Assembly: GCF_000943545.1 (NCBI RefSeq)
Contig: NZ_JTHP01000020.1
Coordinates: 1 to 64,000, forward strand
Direction: 5' to 3'
DNA: 64,000 nt
From: Paenibacillus terrae
GTDB lineage: Bacteria; Bacillota; Bacilli; Paenibacillales; Paenibacillaceae
Numbering within the stretch: the stretch's first letter is position 1; each line of letters starts with the position of its first letter. The notes beneath the pieces were generated by a model. It did no database searches and was not told where the DNA came from. It worked only from the letters and a program-made list of their open reading frames with translations. Below, one piece after another: positions 55,146 to 61,059 of this stretch. The position numbers and the translations under genes were made by a program.

Positions 55146-56075
55146 GTGGAACTACGACAGTTGCAATACTTTATGAAGGTAGCGCAAAAGGAACATGTCA
55201 CTCAGGCGGCCGAGGAGCTGCATGTGGCGCAATCTGCGGTCAGTCGGCAAATTCATCAGCTTGAAGAGGAGCTGGGTGTGAACCTTTTTATGCAAAAGGG
55301 CCGCAACTTGCAGCTTACACCGGTGGGACAGTTATTTTGCAAGCGGGTTGAAACGATTATAAAGGATTTGGAGCGGGCTGTTCTGGAGGTTCATGAGTTT
55401 TTAGACCCGGAGGGTGGAGAAATTCGTATAGGCTTCCCGCACAGTTTGGGCATTCATCTTATTCCTACGGTTGTAGCTGAATTTCGTAAACGGTATCCGA
55501 ATGTTAAATTCAGATTTAAACAGGGGATGTACCCAAGTTTGATCCGTGATGTGTTAGCGGGTGAGGTGGATTTGGCTTTTGTATCCCCTTTTCCAGATCG
55601 TCATGATCATGTCGAGGGAGATGTGGTGTTGACTGAGGAACTGTTTGCGGTCCTGCCCCCTAACCATCCTTTGGCTTCAGCCGGGCACATCACGCTGGAT
55701 CAGCTTAAAGGAGAAAAGTTCATTCTGTTCAGAGACGGTTACTCCTTGCGTCCGATTGTCTGGCAGGCTTGTCTGGAGGCTGGATTTACGCCGGACATCG
55801 CTTTTGAAGGCGAGGAGACGGATACGATCCGCGGATTAGTTGCCGCAGGTATGGGGGTCAGTCTTTTGCCGGAGATGGCGTTGTTCCAGACCAATCCGCT
55901 CCAGCCCGCGAGGGTGTCTATTGTTGATCCCGAGGTGACGCGAACCATTGGCTTAATTCACCGTAGAGATGACAAGCTTCCGTTGGTTGCCAAATCGTTC
56001 CGCACTTTTTTGTTGCAATATTTTGGTCTTCAAGGTAGTGGCACTGTGACGGATGGAAGTGCTAAAGCGGACTAA
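55146..56075 (+). CDS. LysR family regulator (GltC/CysL-like)
   Basis: 309 aa. GTG start after TTGGAGCG. HTH 'HVTQAAEELHVAQSAVSRQI', then an effector-binding domain ('EIRIGFPHSLGIHLIP', 'LIRDVLAGEVDLAFVSPFP'). Similar in layout to GltC-type regulators of B. subtilis. No adjacent target gene is apparent, so a distant or auto target is likely. Confidence 0.9.
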   Translation: MELRQLQYFMKVAQKEHVTQAAEELHVAQSAVSRQIHQLEEELGVNLFMQKGRNLQLTPVGQLFCKRVETIIKDLERAVLEVHEFLDPEGGEIRIGFPHSLGIHLIPTVVAEFRKRYPNVKFRFKQGMYPSLIRDVLAGEVDLAFVSPFPDRHDHVEGDVVLTEELFAVLPPNHPLASAGHITLDQLKGEKFILFRDGYSLRPIVWQACLEAGFTPDIAFEGEETDTIRGLVAAGMGVSLLPEMALFQTNPLQPARVSIVDPEVTRTIGLIHRRDDKLPLVAKSFRTFLLQYFGLQGSGTVTDGSAKAD

Positions 56076-57319: not shown

Positions 57320-57529
57320 ATCCCCATCTGTCCTCACCTCGCGCTCTTCATTCAGCCTTCCATATTACGCATCTGCAAACAGAGTGCTTATAAAAATATT
57401 TTACATGATTCCCAACCGTACAGTCAAACGTCATGCTTTTTTTAGGGTAAGATACAAGCTACTTTAATAGTTAGTAAACATGACATGGAAAGTTCGAGAT
57501 CGAATTTTTTTCAGTTAATAAAAAAAATC

Positions 57530-57559
57530 TTGTCAAGTTTCATGTATTCTGATTATAAT
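57530..57559 (+). promoter_or_regulatory. amtB: amtB promoter
   Basis: TTGTCA (57530) and TATAAT (57554), 18-base spacer; start expected near 57566. Confidence 0.7.
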
Positions 57560-57580
57560 GACAATAAGAATTTCACGAAG

Positions 57581-57597
57581 TGTAAAGAAACTTAACA
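57581..57597 (+). promoter_or_regulatory. GlnR/TnrA-type operator
   Basis: TGTAAAGAAACTTAACA matches TGTNA-N7-TNACA at every fixed base. It lies between the predicted start of transcription and the ribosome binding site of amtB, a place suited to repression. Confidence 0.72.
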
Positions 57598-57615
57598 TTC
57601 GAGGGAGTGGGCTTC

Positions 57616-59019
57616 ATGAGAAAAAAGTGGTTTGTTTCATTACTGGCCATGCTGACGGTACTGGCTTTTCCGGTGGGGGCATTCGCTGCTGATGGTCCGA
57701 CAAATATTCAGCTTCAAGCTGGATTAAACACGGCGTTTACCTTCTTGGCATTTATTCTTGTGTTTTTCATGCAGGCGGGATTTGCATTGCTGGAGGCTGG
57801 CTCCACACGAATGAAGAATGCGGGGCATGTCGCTGGTAAAACGATACTCACCACGGGCGTTGCTGCATTGTCATTCTGGGCTCTCGGGTTCGGACTAGGC
57901 TTCGGTAACGATGGCGGCAACGGATTTATGGGGCTGACGGGTTTCTTCATGAGCGGCACGGATGCTGCTGTATCGTTTGACTCCCTTTCAGGTCTGGATG
58001 TTCCGATTACAATCATGTTTTTGTTCCACTTTGCTTTTGCTGCTGTGTCTCTTTCTATCGCATGTGGGGGAATGGCAGAGCGTGCAAAATTAAGTGTATA
58101 CATCATTTTCGGTGTTTTGTTCTCCATCGTAATCTACCCGGTTGTAGCTCACTGGGTATGGGGCGGCGGCTGGCTTGGCAAGCTGGGCATGCAGGATTAT
58201 GCCGGTTCGACGGTAGTCCATCTGACAGGCGCTACGGCGGCACTTGTCGCTACACTGCTGCTGAAACCGCGTTTGGGCAAGTTCAATAAAGACGGCAAGC
58301 CGAATATTATTCCTGGACATAATCAGGTGTATTCCATACTGGGTGTTATTATTCTCTGGTTTGGCTGGTTCGGATTTAATCCGGGTAGTGCTGTATCGGC
58401 CATGAATGACGGTTTCTTCGGGTATGTAGCGGTAACCACGAATCTTGCTGCGGCGGCAGGTGGAGTATTTGCCCTGCTGGTATCCTGGATGGTCTATGGA
58501 AAAGCGGATATTCCGTCCATGCTGAACGGTGTACTGGCGGCTTTGGTCGCAATAACAGGGGCGTGCGCATTTGTAGCTCCTTGGGCGGCTCTGGTCATCG
58601 GTGCGGTAGCAGGGATTGTTACCTTCTTCACAGCACAATGGTTTGAGCGTGCAAGAGTAGATGATCCGGTATATGCATTTTCCGTCCATGGTATTGCAGG
58701 GATGTGGGGTGCGATATCCACAGGATTGTTCGCTACTCCTGAGCTGGTGAAAATAACAGGTGTTGGTCAAGCCGGGCTATTCTATGGTGGCGGATTTACG
58801 CAATTGGGAGTACAGTTGCTTGGACTGGTAGGGACATTTGCTTTCGTATTCGTTATTTCCTTCATTATTCTGGGTGCGATGAAAGCCATTATGGGTATTC
58901 GTGTTACGGAAGAGGAAGAAACGATGGGACTGGATATCAGTGAGCATGGTACGTACGGCTATCCTGAGCAAATGAAGTTGGTTGCCGAGGCTGAGAAGCG
59001 TTCTAGGACTGTAAGCTAA
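57616..59019 (+). CDS. amtB: Ammonium transporter
   Basis: 467 aa from ATG 57616 (GAGGGAG upstream). Signal-like N-terminus ending FAADGPTN, then eleven membrane helices. 'FFMQAGFALLEAGSTRMKN', 'DYAGSTVVHLTGA', 'WFGWFGFNPGS' and 'FSVHGIAGMWG' contain the twin-His and Phe-gate regions of Amt/MEP. Conducts ammonium/ammonia across the membrane. Unlike B. subtilis nrgAB, no glnK/PII gene follows; a DUF294 nucleotidyltransferase begins 48 bases later with no terminator between. Confidence 0.96.
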   Translation: MRKKWFVSLLAMLTVLAFPVGAFAADGPTNIQLQAGLNTAFTFLAFILVFFMQAGFALLEAGSTRMKNAGHVAGKTILTTGVAALSFWALGFGLGFGNDGGNGFMGLTGFFMSGTDAAVSFDSLSGLDVPITIMFLFHFAFAAVSLSIACGGMAERAKLSVYIIFGVLFSIVIYPVVAHWVWGGGWLGKLGMQDYAGSTVVHLTGATAALVATLLLKPRLGKFNKDGKPNIIPGHNQVYSILGVIILWFGWFGFNPGSAVSAMNDGFFGYVAVTTNLAAAAGGVFALLVSWMVYGKADIPSMLNGVLAALVAITGACAFVAPWAALVIGAVAGIVTFFTAQWFERARVDDPVYAFSVHGIAGMWGAISTGLFATPELVKITGVGQAGLFYGGGFTQLGVQLLGLVGTFAFVFVISFIILGAMKAIMGIRVTEEEETMGLDISEHGTYGYPEQMKLVAEAEKRSRTVS

Positions 59020-59067
59020 TATGTAAAATATAAAGAGCCAGTATGGATGAGCGGAGGAGATGGAAGT

Positions 59068-60150
59068 ATGGAACTGCAAAATACGGCACCTTGGGTGAGT
59101 TCAGCCGAAGCGATTGATCATGCAGATACGCCTGAATCGCTAAGGCAGGCCAGGGTCGATTCTCAAAAATGGCTGCTGGCTTCCCAAGCCTCCGCTCCGT
59201 TATCAGACTGGTTACAAACGGCGAATGATATGCATGATCGCATTGCAGCCAGAGCTGTGCAAATGTGCGAAAAAGGGATGGTTGAGGATGGCTTCGGCCT
59301 TCCTCCCGTCCCTTACGCATTTATAGCCTTCGGCAGCATGGGACGCTCGGAGTCGACGCTATGGAGTGACCAAGATAACGGTATGATTATTAGTGACACT
59401 GCATCTGTCGGGAAAGAATCATATTTTATGAAGTTCGGCCAGAGGATATCTGCAATGCTGGAATATTTGGGATATCCGAAATGTGAAGGGAAAGTGATGT
59501 GTTCAGAGCCGCTATGGCGCAAAACGTTGTCTGAGTGGCAGGAGCAGCTGGCAAAATGGTCCGATGATTTTGCATGGGAGCCGATTCGTTATCTGATTAT
59601 CTCTTCTGATATGAGGCATATCGCTGGAGACGAGCAATTGTCAGCAGAATGGAAGCGGAGCTTTTATGCGTTGCTGCGCAAGCATCCGGATTTGCCTTCC
59701 GCGGTACTTAGGAACACGGTAAGGCATAAAGCGACACTTAATATTTTGGGTCAAATCGTTACCGAGCGCTTCGGGGAGCACGCGGGTGATTTTGATGTAA
59801 AATACGGTTTGTACATCCCATTGGTAAATGCAGTACGGTTTTGGGCTTTGCAGCACGGGGTGGAGGAGAGCTCTACGTTGAAAAGGCTCAGGCGGCTCGC
59901 GCTGCTGGAAGCAGCACCGTCACCTTTGCTGGATGCTTGTGAGCGGGCCTTTCGGATCGCGCTACAGCTTCGGATGGCTACTCCGGTGCAGGAAAAGAAC
60001 GGACTCTTAGTTAGCAAGGGTTACCTTGCTGTCAAACCGTTGAAGCAAGGTAAGGGCTGGCATGAACTGCGCGAGGCGCTTTCGACGGTGCGGCGGCTAC
60101 ATCGCGCGCTGCAAAGACAGTTGCGGTTTACGGAAGGGAGAAGGTCATGA
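59068..60150 (+). CDS. DUF294 (GlnD-like) nucleotidyltransferase
   Basis: 360 aa from ATG 59068, seven bases after GGAGGAGA. Residues ~20-80 are helical; ~95-150 is a polymerase-beta-type nucleotidyltransferase: 'FGSMGRSESTLWSDQDNGMI' gives the G-S-x-G-R-x-E and D-x-D metal site. The rest is DUF294_C, a helical substrate-binding domain. This arrangement resembles the uridylyltransferase half of GlnD, but the HD and ACT parts of GlnD are missing, as are the CBS domains that often precede DUF294. A role in modifying a protein in nitrogen control is inferred from amtB next door. Its last bases overlap the exonuclease start (ATGA). Confidence 0.85.
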   Translation: MELQNTAPWVSSAEAIDHADTPESLRQARVDSQKWLLASQASAPLSDWLQTANDMHDRIAARAVQMCEKGMVEDGFGLPPVPYAFIAFGSMGRSESTLWSDQDNGMIISDTASVGKESYFMKFGQRISAMLEYLGYPKCEGKVMCSEPLWRKTLSEWQEQLAKWSDDFAWEPIRYLIISSDMRHIAGDEQLSAEWKRSFYALLRKHPDLPSAVLRNTVRHKATLNILGQIVTERFGEHAGDFDVKYGLYIPLVNAVRFWALQHGVEESSTLKRLRRLALLEAAPSPLLDACERAFRIALQLRMATPVQEKNGLLVSKGYLAVKPLKQGKGWHELREALSTVRRLHRALQRQLRFTEGRRS

Positions 60151-60884
60151 AGGAACCAGCGCAGGGAGGCGGCTTTTGGAGCGCTCTTCGCAGAGGAGGG
60201 GTACCGTCGGCCATCGCTTCAGTGATGGGAGCTCCTACGGCTCAGCAGATGGCCTTTATCCGTTCCTTAACTCGGGAGCAACGGCGCTCTGAGGTATTGC
60301 GAACCCCGCTGGAGCGTTTGGAAACGGTTGTTTTTGACTTGGAAACTACGGGATTTTCAGCGCAGCATGGAGATGAAATTTTATCGTTCGGTGCGATTCG
60401 GGTTGTTGGGGATACGATAATGGAAAAAGAGCAATTTTACACGCTTGTCAATCCACGTACGGCCATTCCTGAGCACATTACGGAGCTTACCGGGATTACC
60501 CGGGAAATGACGGATGAGGCTTTGCCGCTTATGGATGGGCTGCATGACTTTATGTCCTTTGTAGGGGGACGGGTGCTTGTAGCGCATGCCAGTGCTCATG
60601 ACAAGGCATTTTTGAATGCAGCGTTGTGGAAAACCTCTAAAGTGCAACTGACCCACCGTGTTTTGGATACGATGATGCTTGCCAAATGGCTGGAACCGCA
60701 GCAGCACCAAACGTACAGTTTGGATGAGCTGCTGACCTATCAGGGCATACCGATTCAGGGAAGGCATCATGCGTTAGAGGACGCGAAAATGACGGCAAAG
60801 CTGTGGGTGGCGTACGTTCAGGAAATGCTGAAGCGTAATGTGACCAATTTGGCAGATGTGTATGCTCATTTAAGCCATGCCTGA
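60147..60884 (+). CDS. DnaQ-like 3'-5' exonuclease (DEDDh)
   Basis: 245 aa. Overlaps the DUF294 stop by four bases (ATGA), a tightly coupled start. Residues ~1-50 form a non-catalytic N-terminus; the exonuclease domain has 'VVFDLETTGF' (D, E), 'HASAHDKAFL' (D) and 'RHHALEDAKMTAKL' (H, D). Not part of a polymerase gene; family includes DNA polymerase epsilon subunits and oligoribonucleases. Pairing of DUF294 with a DnaQ exonuclease recurs in other bacteria, often beside transporters, to my knowledge; its role is not established. Confidence 0.9.
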   Translation: MKEPAQGGGFWSALRRGGVPSAIASVMGAPTAQQMAFIRSLTREQRRSEVLRTPLERLETVVFDLETTGFSAQHGDEILSFGAIRVVGDTIMEKEQFYTLVNPRTAIPEHITELTGITREMTDEALPLMDGLHDFMSFVGGRVLVAHASAHDKAFLNAALWKTSKVQLTHRVLDTMMLAKWLEPQQHQTYSLDELLTYQGIPIQGRHHALEDAKMTAKLWVAYVQEMLKRNVTNLADVYAHLSHA

Positions 60885-61059
60885 TCCAGTACAAGGTACA
60901 AGTTTCAATATAGAACAACATTACAGCAAGTCTGCGATCATTCGTGGGTTTGCTGTTTTTTTGCCTCTGTATAGATTGGAAGGGTTAGAGGTGGGAGTAG
61001 AAGGGGCACCATATGGAGAAGGTGAGAGTAATCCAGATGAAAGGCCGGGTGATTGGACT

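Follow-up and report, generated by a model that had tools for sequence, protein, structure and literature searches.

The stretch analyzed here, 64,000 nucleotides of a Paenibacillus terrae contig (hereafter, the window), carries on its forward strand a gene for the ammonium channel AmtB, followed by genes for a DUF294 nucleotidyltransferase and a DEDDh-type exonuclease-like protein (Table 1). An initial annotation, made from the letters alone, had proposed these three genes in this order, with a 48-base gap after amtB, an ATGA overlap between the second and third genes, and a nitrogen-type operator ahead of them, and the placement is borne out by gene calls and by Pfam and NCBIfam matches. The DUF294 frame is open from an ATG at 59047, and the ATG at 59068, which is preceded by AGGAG, is the likelier start, giving the 48-base gap; the stop codon of this gene shares the letters ATGA with the start of the exonuclease gene. 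A hairpin scan found none between the three genes and one weak forward-strand match within amtB (57952).

Table 1. Coordinates of the genes and putative control signals of the amtB operon in the window.
Feature	Position	Strand	Evidence and remarks
GlnR/TnrA-type site I	57468-57486	+	Upstream of the promoter; 1 mismatch to the published WLY78 amtB site TAGTTAGTAAATATGACAT
Sigma-70-type promoter, TTGTCA-18-TATAAT	57530-57559	+	11/12 consensus positions; consensus match alone
GlnR/TnrA-type site II	57580-57598	+	3' of the -10 element; 1 mismatch to the published WLY78 site ATGTAAAGAAACTTAACAT
amtB, ammonium channel	57616-59019	+	PF00909, E 3e-115; TIGR00836; C-terminal motif GLDISEHGTYGYPE
DUF294/DUF294_C nucleotidyltransferase	59068-60150	+	PF03445, E 7e-37; PF10335, E 4.5e-25; GlnE/DrrA-like predicted fold
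DEDDh 3'-5' exonuclease-like protein, PRK07740 family	60147-60884	+	RNase_T, E 4e-33; NF005836 over cut-off
Intrinsic-terminator-like hairpin with T run, likely operon end	60923-60956	+	15-pair stem, tail TTTTTTGCCT

The distribution of this arrangement was followed in genome samples from the family of the window (148 genomes, drawn evenly from a larger group), its phylum (398) and its class (200). Within the family, DUF294 is present in 139 genomes and an Amt in 147. All 139 DUF294 places were examined as loci; the exonuclease gene lies downstream of DUF294 in every one of them, and amtB, DUF294 and exonuclease follow in that order on one strand (hereafter, the triad) in 134 of the 139 DUF294-bearing genomes. 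This count alone is weak evidence since the wider region is syntenic in the family, with MerR and Zn-peptidase neighbors in 104 of 108 loci. A further 80 named loci were the best 80 of 548 confirmed candidates ranked by likeness to the short DUF294 protein of Bacilli, a ranking that makes them uninformative on long DUF294 proteins. They come mostly from Bacillaceae (Bacillus methanolicus, Neobacillus, Mesobacillus, Fictibacillus, Alkalihalobacillus, Aquibacillus and others), with one titled Paenibacillus sp. BSR1-1. The annotation had named beforehand a lack of amtB linkage outside the genus as grounds for giving up its proposal; this ground falls away, amtB being present at all 80 named loci (in two frames at L236) and the exonuclease at 79 (it is missing at L272). 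Since any of five neighbors of the triad in the window occurs at 0 of these 80 loci, the triad was kept while its surroundings changed, and on the strength of this flank control we rejected chance or mere synteny as its cause. Three short DUF294 genes in the phylum sample also belong to triads, one of them (L073) identical to L213. A megablast search of positions 57340-60960 against plasmids gave no match, and a mobile origin was rejected.

The two enzymes also tend to be lost together. None of the nine family genomes that lack DUF294 has a PRK07740 exonuclease above the cut-off of 261 bits, while eight of the nine have an Amt. The exonuclease was found in all twelve DUF294-bearing genomes searched, with three scores below the cut-off (210-251 bits) and a PolC/DinG-like background of at most 145 bits. 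Five extra Bacilli genomes gave no exonuclease over the cut-off, and three of them are without DUF294.

The operator is both real and double. Sites I and II are each one base off the two GlnR sites of the amtBglnK operon of P. polymyxa WLY78, whose amtB promoter was bound by GlnR in chromatin immunoprecipitation with quantitative PCR (under nitrogen excess) and in electrophoretic mobility shift assays (PMC9948412). Site II holds a perfect TGTNA-N7-TNACA box at 57581-57597, and the box of site I has one mismatch. A box of this type is by itself little proof, since boxes with at most one mismatch are no commoner in the window than chance would give (25, with 26.6 expected). Upstream of amtB, a perfect box was found in 91 of 103 family loci (those with amtB in 8.5-kb stretches; 30 shorter loci end before the promoter) and in 75 of 80 loci from other Bacillales, while letter shuffles of the same upstream stretches contained a perfect box in one case for the family and one for the other Bacillales. 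These features suggest that amtB, the DUF294 gene and the exonuclease gene form one GlnR-controlled operon, for which we infer a single transcript. A gene for a GltC-type LysR regulator lies near the operon at 55146-56075 (NF053705, 418.7 bits); a match of this type in 78 of 108 family loci places this nitrogen regulator within the local synteny.

The DUF294 and DUF294_C domains of the second gene product score 126.8 and 88.6 bits, against Pfam cut-offs of 21 and 22.5. The G-S-x-G-R/D-x-D site, described as intact in the annotation, is present as F-G-S-M-G-R-S-E-x4-S-D-Q-D, and the catalytic residues (GS-x-GR-x-E and D-x-D) show no variation across the 138 family and 80 Bacillales sequences aligned. 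The description of the enzyme as GlnD-like, on the other hand, had to be abandoned. GlnD has HD and ACT domains beside its transferase, whereas the Pfam scan of the window protein returned DUF294 and DUF294_C only, with no HD, ACT, CBS or cNMP domain; GlnD-like uridylylation of PII was rejected on this ground and because the genome offers no PII substrate (see below). A DUF294 profile search of the sequences of solved structures gave nothing credible, and it was fold comparison alone that gave matches. The AlphaFold2 model of the window protein, computed with 40 relatives (predicted local distance difference test 85.4, predicted template modeling score 0.84), is nearest to E. coli GlnE (1v4a, Z 26.1 over 323 residues; 3k7d, Z 25.9 over 316; 15% identity in the structural alignment) and to the N-terminal AMPylase domain of DrrA/SidM (6yx5, Z 24.7 over 300 residues, 10% identity; 3nku, Z 13.0), well ahead of the next other matches, to aminoglycoside transferases (Z 8.7) and to MNT antitoxins (Z about 6). 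GlnE and DrrA, the latter a host-directed effector, attach adenosine monophosphate (AMP) to protein tyrosines; GlnE has a D-x-D pair in its active site and two catalytic units, where the DUF294 protein has one. Since its predicted fold is of the GlnE/DrrA type, protein nucleotidylation seems the most likely reaction of the DUF294 enzyme.

The product of the third gene scores 313.9 bits against the PRK07740 model NF005836. Its D, E, D, H and D residues are kept in 138 of 138 family exonucleases. The third acid is Glu rather than Asp in all 79 exonucleases of the named Bacillales loci (L213-L292), which may bear on exonuclease activity in those organisms.

It is also important to consider which other nitrogen regulators accompany the operon. 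The source genome has one Amt, one DUF294 and two glutamine synthetases (GS), one of which we take, from its insert and loop, to be of the GSI-beta type. The annotation had placed the two enzymes where PII would be expected, and this holds for the genome as a whole, since no PII (PF00543) match was found in its 6.5 Mb (rated 100% complete); the control search recovered PII in 13 of 14 genomes, including B. subtilis. GlnE (PF03710) also gave no match in the genome or in the Pfam scan of the DUF294 protein. Ammonium channels are the textbook case of PII control. In the family, PII is found in 21 of 148 genomes, with no match in the other 127. All 21 also carry DUF294, and PII adjoins another Amt in 15 of the 20 family PII loci examined. 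Four family genomes (L049-L052) have a 113-residue PII frame with no Amt in the surrounding 3.3 kb; these frames score lower and perhaps form a separate PII subgroup. A frameshift interrupts the DUF294 gene at L197 (3523-4628) in genome G011, which also has a PII-linked second Amt, possibly a case of decay following regulator redundancy.

The Amts that adjoin the pair differ from PII-linked Amts in both clade and C-terminal motif. Among Amts of at least 390 residues (216 DUF294-linked and 43 PII-linked), the sequence (Y/F)GYPE follows GLDxSEHG in 214 of the DUF294-linked proteins, the other two having a YAYPE and an unreadable tail (L251), and a GYPE tail is found in none of the 43 PII-linked proteins (41 judged by pattern, two by eye). 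Two midpoint-rooted Amt trees, with the tail left out of the alignment, were obtained by quick searches of samples of 109 and 126 rows. The first sampled 55 of the 216 DUF294-linked Amts and took in every PII-linked Amt (43) and every other Amt (11) of at least 390 residues; the second omitted L211, L303 and L314 and added 20 Amts. In the first tree, a branch with a Shimodaira-Hasegawa-like approximate likelihood ratio test (SH-aLRT) value of 100 unites 64 rows, namely the 55 DUF294-linked Amts, nine partnerless ones and no PII-linked Amt, and the corresponding branch of the second tree (SH-aLRT 98) unites 69 rows, again with none PII-linked. With the DUF294-linked Amts in a single clade, it is probable that the pair became associated with an Amt lineage on one occasion and was later lost several times. 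The unlinked Amts at L332, L333, L336 and L345 end in PAY(N/S) and lie about 11-13 kb from a GSI-beta gene, which suggests a second conserved nitrogen cluster in several genomes.

A further association is seen where the pair and its channel lie apart. Five genomes have the pair with no adjacent amtB, and in each the sole Amt among the matches listed lies elsewhere (in trans). All five of these Amts have the YGYPE tail and fall in the DUF294 clade, as against 2 of the 19 unlinked Amts compared from triad genomes (Fisher p 0.0005), the 19 having been hand-picked rather than drawn at random among the matches listed, with three genomes giving two each and with the second Amts of many genomes, those of the window's genus included, not located. 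In one trans genome (L181) a remnant of the amtB 3' end is still in frame ahead of DUF294.

Outside the Bacilli triads, the pair is often found beside other transporters. A DUF294 match occurs in 68 of the 398 genomes of the phylum sample, 67 of them over the cut-off and about a dozen weak. Among long DUF294 proteins, the one scanned carries cNMP-binding and CBS domains, and the second Asp of D-x-D is kept in 35 of 38. At 37 loci of long proteins, the exonuclease is in the gene run at 29 (26 adjacent, three with a symporter between); no Amt was found in any of the 37 examined stretches, a sodium:solute symporter was found in 14, within 0.8 kb and on the same strand in 10, with genes for aconitase and methylmalonyl-CoA mutase among the further neighbors. 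Genome G536 carries two pairs, one linked to a symporter and one to amtB (L074 and L075). On plasmids, where 61 records matched and five loci were opened, three alphaproteobacterial loci carry acs, DUF485 or DUF4212, a symporter, DUF294 and a 3'-5' exonuclease, and one of these symporters is annotated as an acetate symporter. On two alphaproteobacterial plasmids the exonuclease is about 650 residues long and has a response regulator gene ahead of it (L323, 7470-9458; L326, 7775-9727), which hints at a two-component signaling link.

We presume that pp_0354 of Pseudomonas putida encodes a long DUF294 protein. This gene, which encodes a CBS domain, shares an operon with the RNase_T gene pp_0353 under the control of MxtR/ErdR, relatives of the two adjoin actP in P. 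aeruginosa, and deletions of pp_0353 and of actP-I each impair growth on pyruvate (PMC9927547). The likeness to the window lies in the RNase_T gene within the operon, the linkage to a transporter in P. aeruginosa and the nutrient regulon shared with the transporter; the differences are the CBS domain of pp_0354 and its acetate/pyruvate setting under MxtR/ErdR, as opposed to ammonium here (PMC9927547).

Among known systems, amtB-glnK (nrgAB) is likewise an Amt gene with an adjacent regulatory gene in the GlnR/TnrA regulon, but it has PII beside amt, whereas here a nucleotidyltransferase and an exonuclease are the candidate regulators in a genome without PII. The suggestion that the system is undescribed was right only in part. 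Among mainly open-licence literature we found no study of what the pair does in Bacilli, but a table footnote of 2012 (footnote d, PMC3412718) already notes the same arrangement, in which amtB seems to share an operon with a DUF294-domain gene and dnaQ; it marks entries from Anoxybacillus, Geobacillus, two Paenibacillus and Brevibacillus, the glnK cell being empty in 6 of 8 marked entries. As excerpted, PMC3412718 goes no further than this footnote and does not take up distribution, Amt clade, fold or function. The second, co-transcribed gene of the WLY78 operon is called glnK2 in PMC9948412, and the exonuclease gene goes unmentioned in the excerpted account of that operon. The layout in the present genome, together with the empty glnK cell of P. 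polymyxa E681 (PMC3412718), leads us to believe that glnK2 of WLY78 is probably the DUF294 gene. We have not met in print the distribution of the pair relative to PII, the single Amt clade with its C-terminal motif, the cases in trans, the GlnE/DrrA fold of this protein or the symporter link across groups.

The annotation had proposed an ammonium-responsive signal system, with the transferase tagging AmtB or another target and the exonuclease undoing the tag or degrading a nucleotide signal. This is supported in part, by a conserved pair that is linked to amtB within and beyond the genus, lies under GlnR-type boxes, retains its catalytic residues and occurs in genomes mostly devoid of PII. The explanation that we favor, with a probability of roughly 0.45, is that this GlnR-controlled operon combines an ammonium channel of a distinct clade with a two-enzyme regulatory module in the place where other Bacilli have PII. 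The DUF294 enzyme would transfer a nucleotide, AMP being the likeliest, to a protein. Given the linkage in cis and the cases in trans, the first candidate for the target is AmtB, at its C-terminal tail or cytoplasmic face, or else a protein that binds AmtB, and the tag would match ammonium uptake to the nitrogen supply of the cell. The DEDDh enzyme would then remove the tag by cutting the phosphodiester bond, a task for which GlnE has a second domain of the GlnE fold. Such a role of the exonuclease as eraser is chemically plausible, AMP being joined to tyrosine by a phosphodiester, but the P. putida phenotypes fit it only loosely. With the pair recurring beside sodium:solute symporters and its two genes almost always found together, and with amtB, in Bacilli, the pair looks, from its predicted fold and its neighbors, like a transporter-coupled nucleotidylation module standing where PII usually does. 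A far bolder version, which we regard as unlikely, is that DUF294-DEDDh is a widespread transporter-tagging system in which DUF294 AMPylates a YGYPE-tailed AmtB or an acetate-type symporter and the exonuclease erases the tag, possibly an oligo-AMP, and which replaced PII once, at the base of one Bacilli Amt clade. An oligo-AMP tag has been seen on a HEPN toxin modified by its MNT antitoxin.

Several observations weigh against the favored explanation. PII and the triad coexist in family genomes and in G499, so the pair is not a universal genome-wide replacement of PII. Seven of the nine pair-less family genomes keep an Amt with the tail (L202-L208; of the remaining two, G073 has an Amt whose tail was unread and G059 has no Amt), which means that the pair alone does not maintain the tail, and the first tail tyrosine is Phe in 12 of the 216 DUF294-linked Amts; together these findings weaken the tail as a kept target of the pair. 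The five trans Amts come from two genera and form, with two others, one sub-clade of unlinked Amts, so the trans case amounts to few events and not five. Eight of the 37 long-protein loci have no exonuclease in the gene run (some stretches reach a contig end), and DUF294-exonuclease pairs without a nearby transporter do occur, as at the Vibrio tritonius and Cytobacillus spongiae plasmid loci, which lack an adjacent one. We know of no precedent for a DEDDh enzyme that strips a nucleoside monophosphate from a protein, and in the literature we came across no enzymatic or genetic test of these genes in Bacilli. A strain deleted for pp_0354 grew without impairment on succinate, on acetate and on pyruvate (PMC9927547), and since it is deletion of pp_0353 that hurts growth on pyruvate, a simple writer and eraser pair fits poorly. 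GSI-beta, finally, nearly co-occurs with DUF294 as well.

This last point leads to a different substrate. With a fold nearest GlnE, no GlnE in the genome and a partial co-occurrence with GSI-beta, GS is the second candidate, and the DUF294 enzyme might be a GlnE analogue that AMPylates it, with reversal by the exonuclease or another enzyme and with amtB merely co-regulated. GSI-beta is present in 137 of 139 DUF294-bearing and 7 of 9 DUF294-lacking family genomes (Fisher p 0.019, uncorrected for kinship), and G065 and G136 lack both. In the GSI-beta of the source genome, NIYEL stands where the adenylylation loop of the E. coli enzyme has NLYDL. Two genomes (G010 and G019) carry DUF294 without GSI-beta, which weakens GSI-beta as an obligatory substrate, and seven show the reverse. 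Moreover, the linkage is with amtB, no glnA having been seen beside the pair (none was looked for), and the pair is often accompanied by symporters in other phyla. We consider this explanation improbable. A passenger role, in which the two are housekeeping enzymes kept beside amtB by shared nitrogen induction without direct effect on uptake, seems to us similarly hard to credit. It would agree with the synteny of the whole neighborhood (104 of 108 family loci) and with the nine of 148 genomes that do without the pair, eight of them with an Amt, but it sits poorly with the linkage to amtB at an unrelated place in other genera (80 of 80), with the co-loss of DUF294 and exonuclease, and with the trans case (5 of 5, though few events).

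The target might also be nucleic acid, the transferase extending RNA 3' ends and the exonuclease trimming them, which would set the turnover of transporter mRNA. The solved DEDDh relatives PolC, DnaQ and Cas2-DEDDh, which cut nucleic acid, speak for this, and mRNA decay has been the subject of speculation for pp_0353 (PMC9927547). The predicted fold, however, matches protein AMPylases far better than any other listed chain, and general RNA work would leave the transporter linkage unexplained, and we give this alternative little weight. Less probable still is a nucleotide second messenger made by the transferase, degraded by the exonuclease and bound by AmtB or a partner. The CBS and cNMP-binding domains of a long relative (one protein scanned) would point to nucleotide sensing in the family, but the window protein has neither, and to our knowledge the known enzymes of the GlnE/DrrA fold all act on protein tyrosines.

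Whatever its reaction, a large bacterial family that is mostly without PII keeps a conserved two-enzyme pair beside its ammonium channel. Should these enzymes prove to modify the channel or one of its partners, this would be a new form of nutrient-uptake control and the first function for DUF294 and for an orphan exonuclease family, and it would help to account for the presence of the pair beside acetate-type symporters in other groups. The finding also bears on ammonium control in nitrogen-fixing Paenibacillus, where the DUF294 gene may bear the name glnK.

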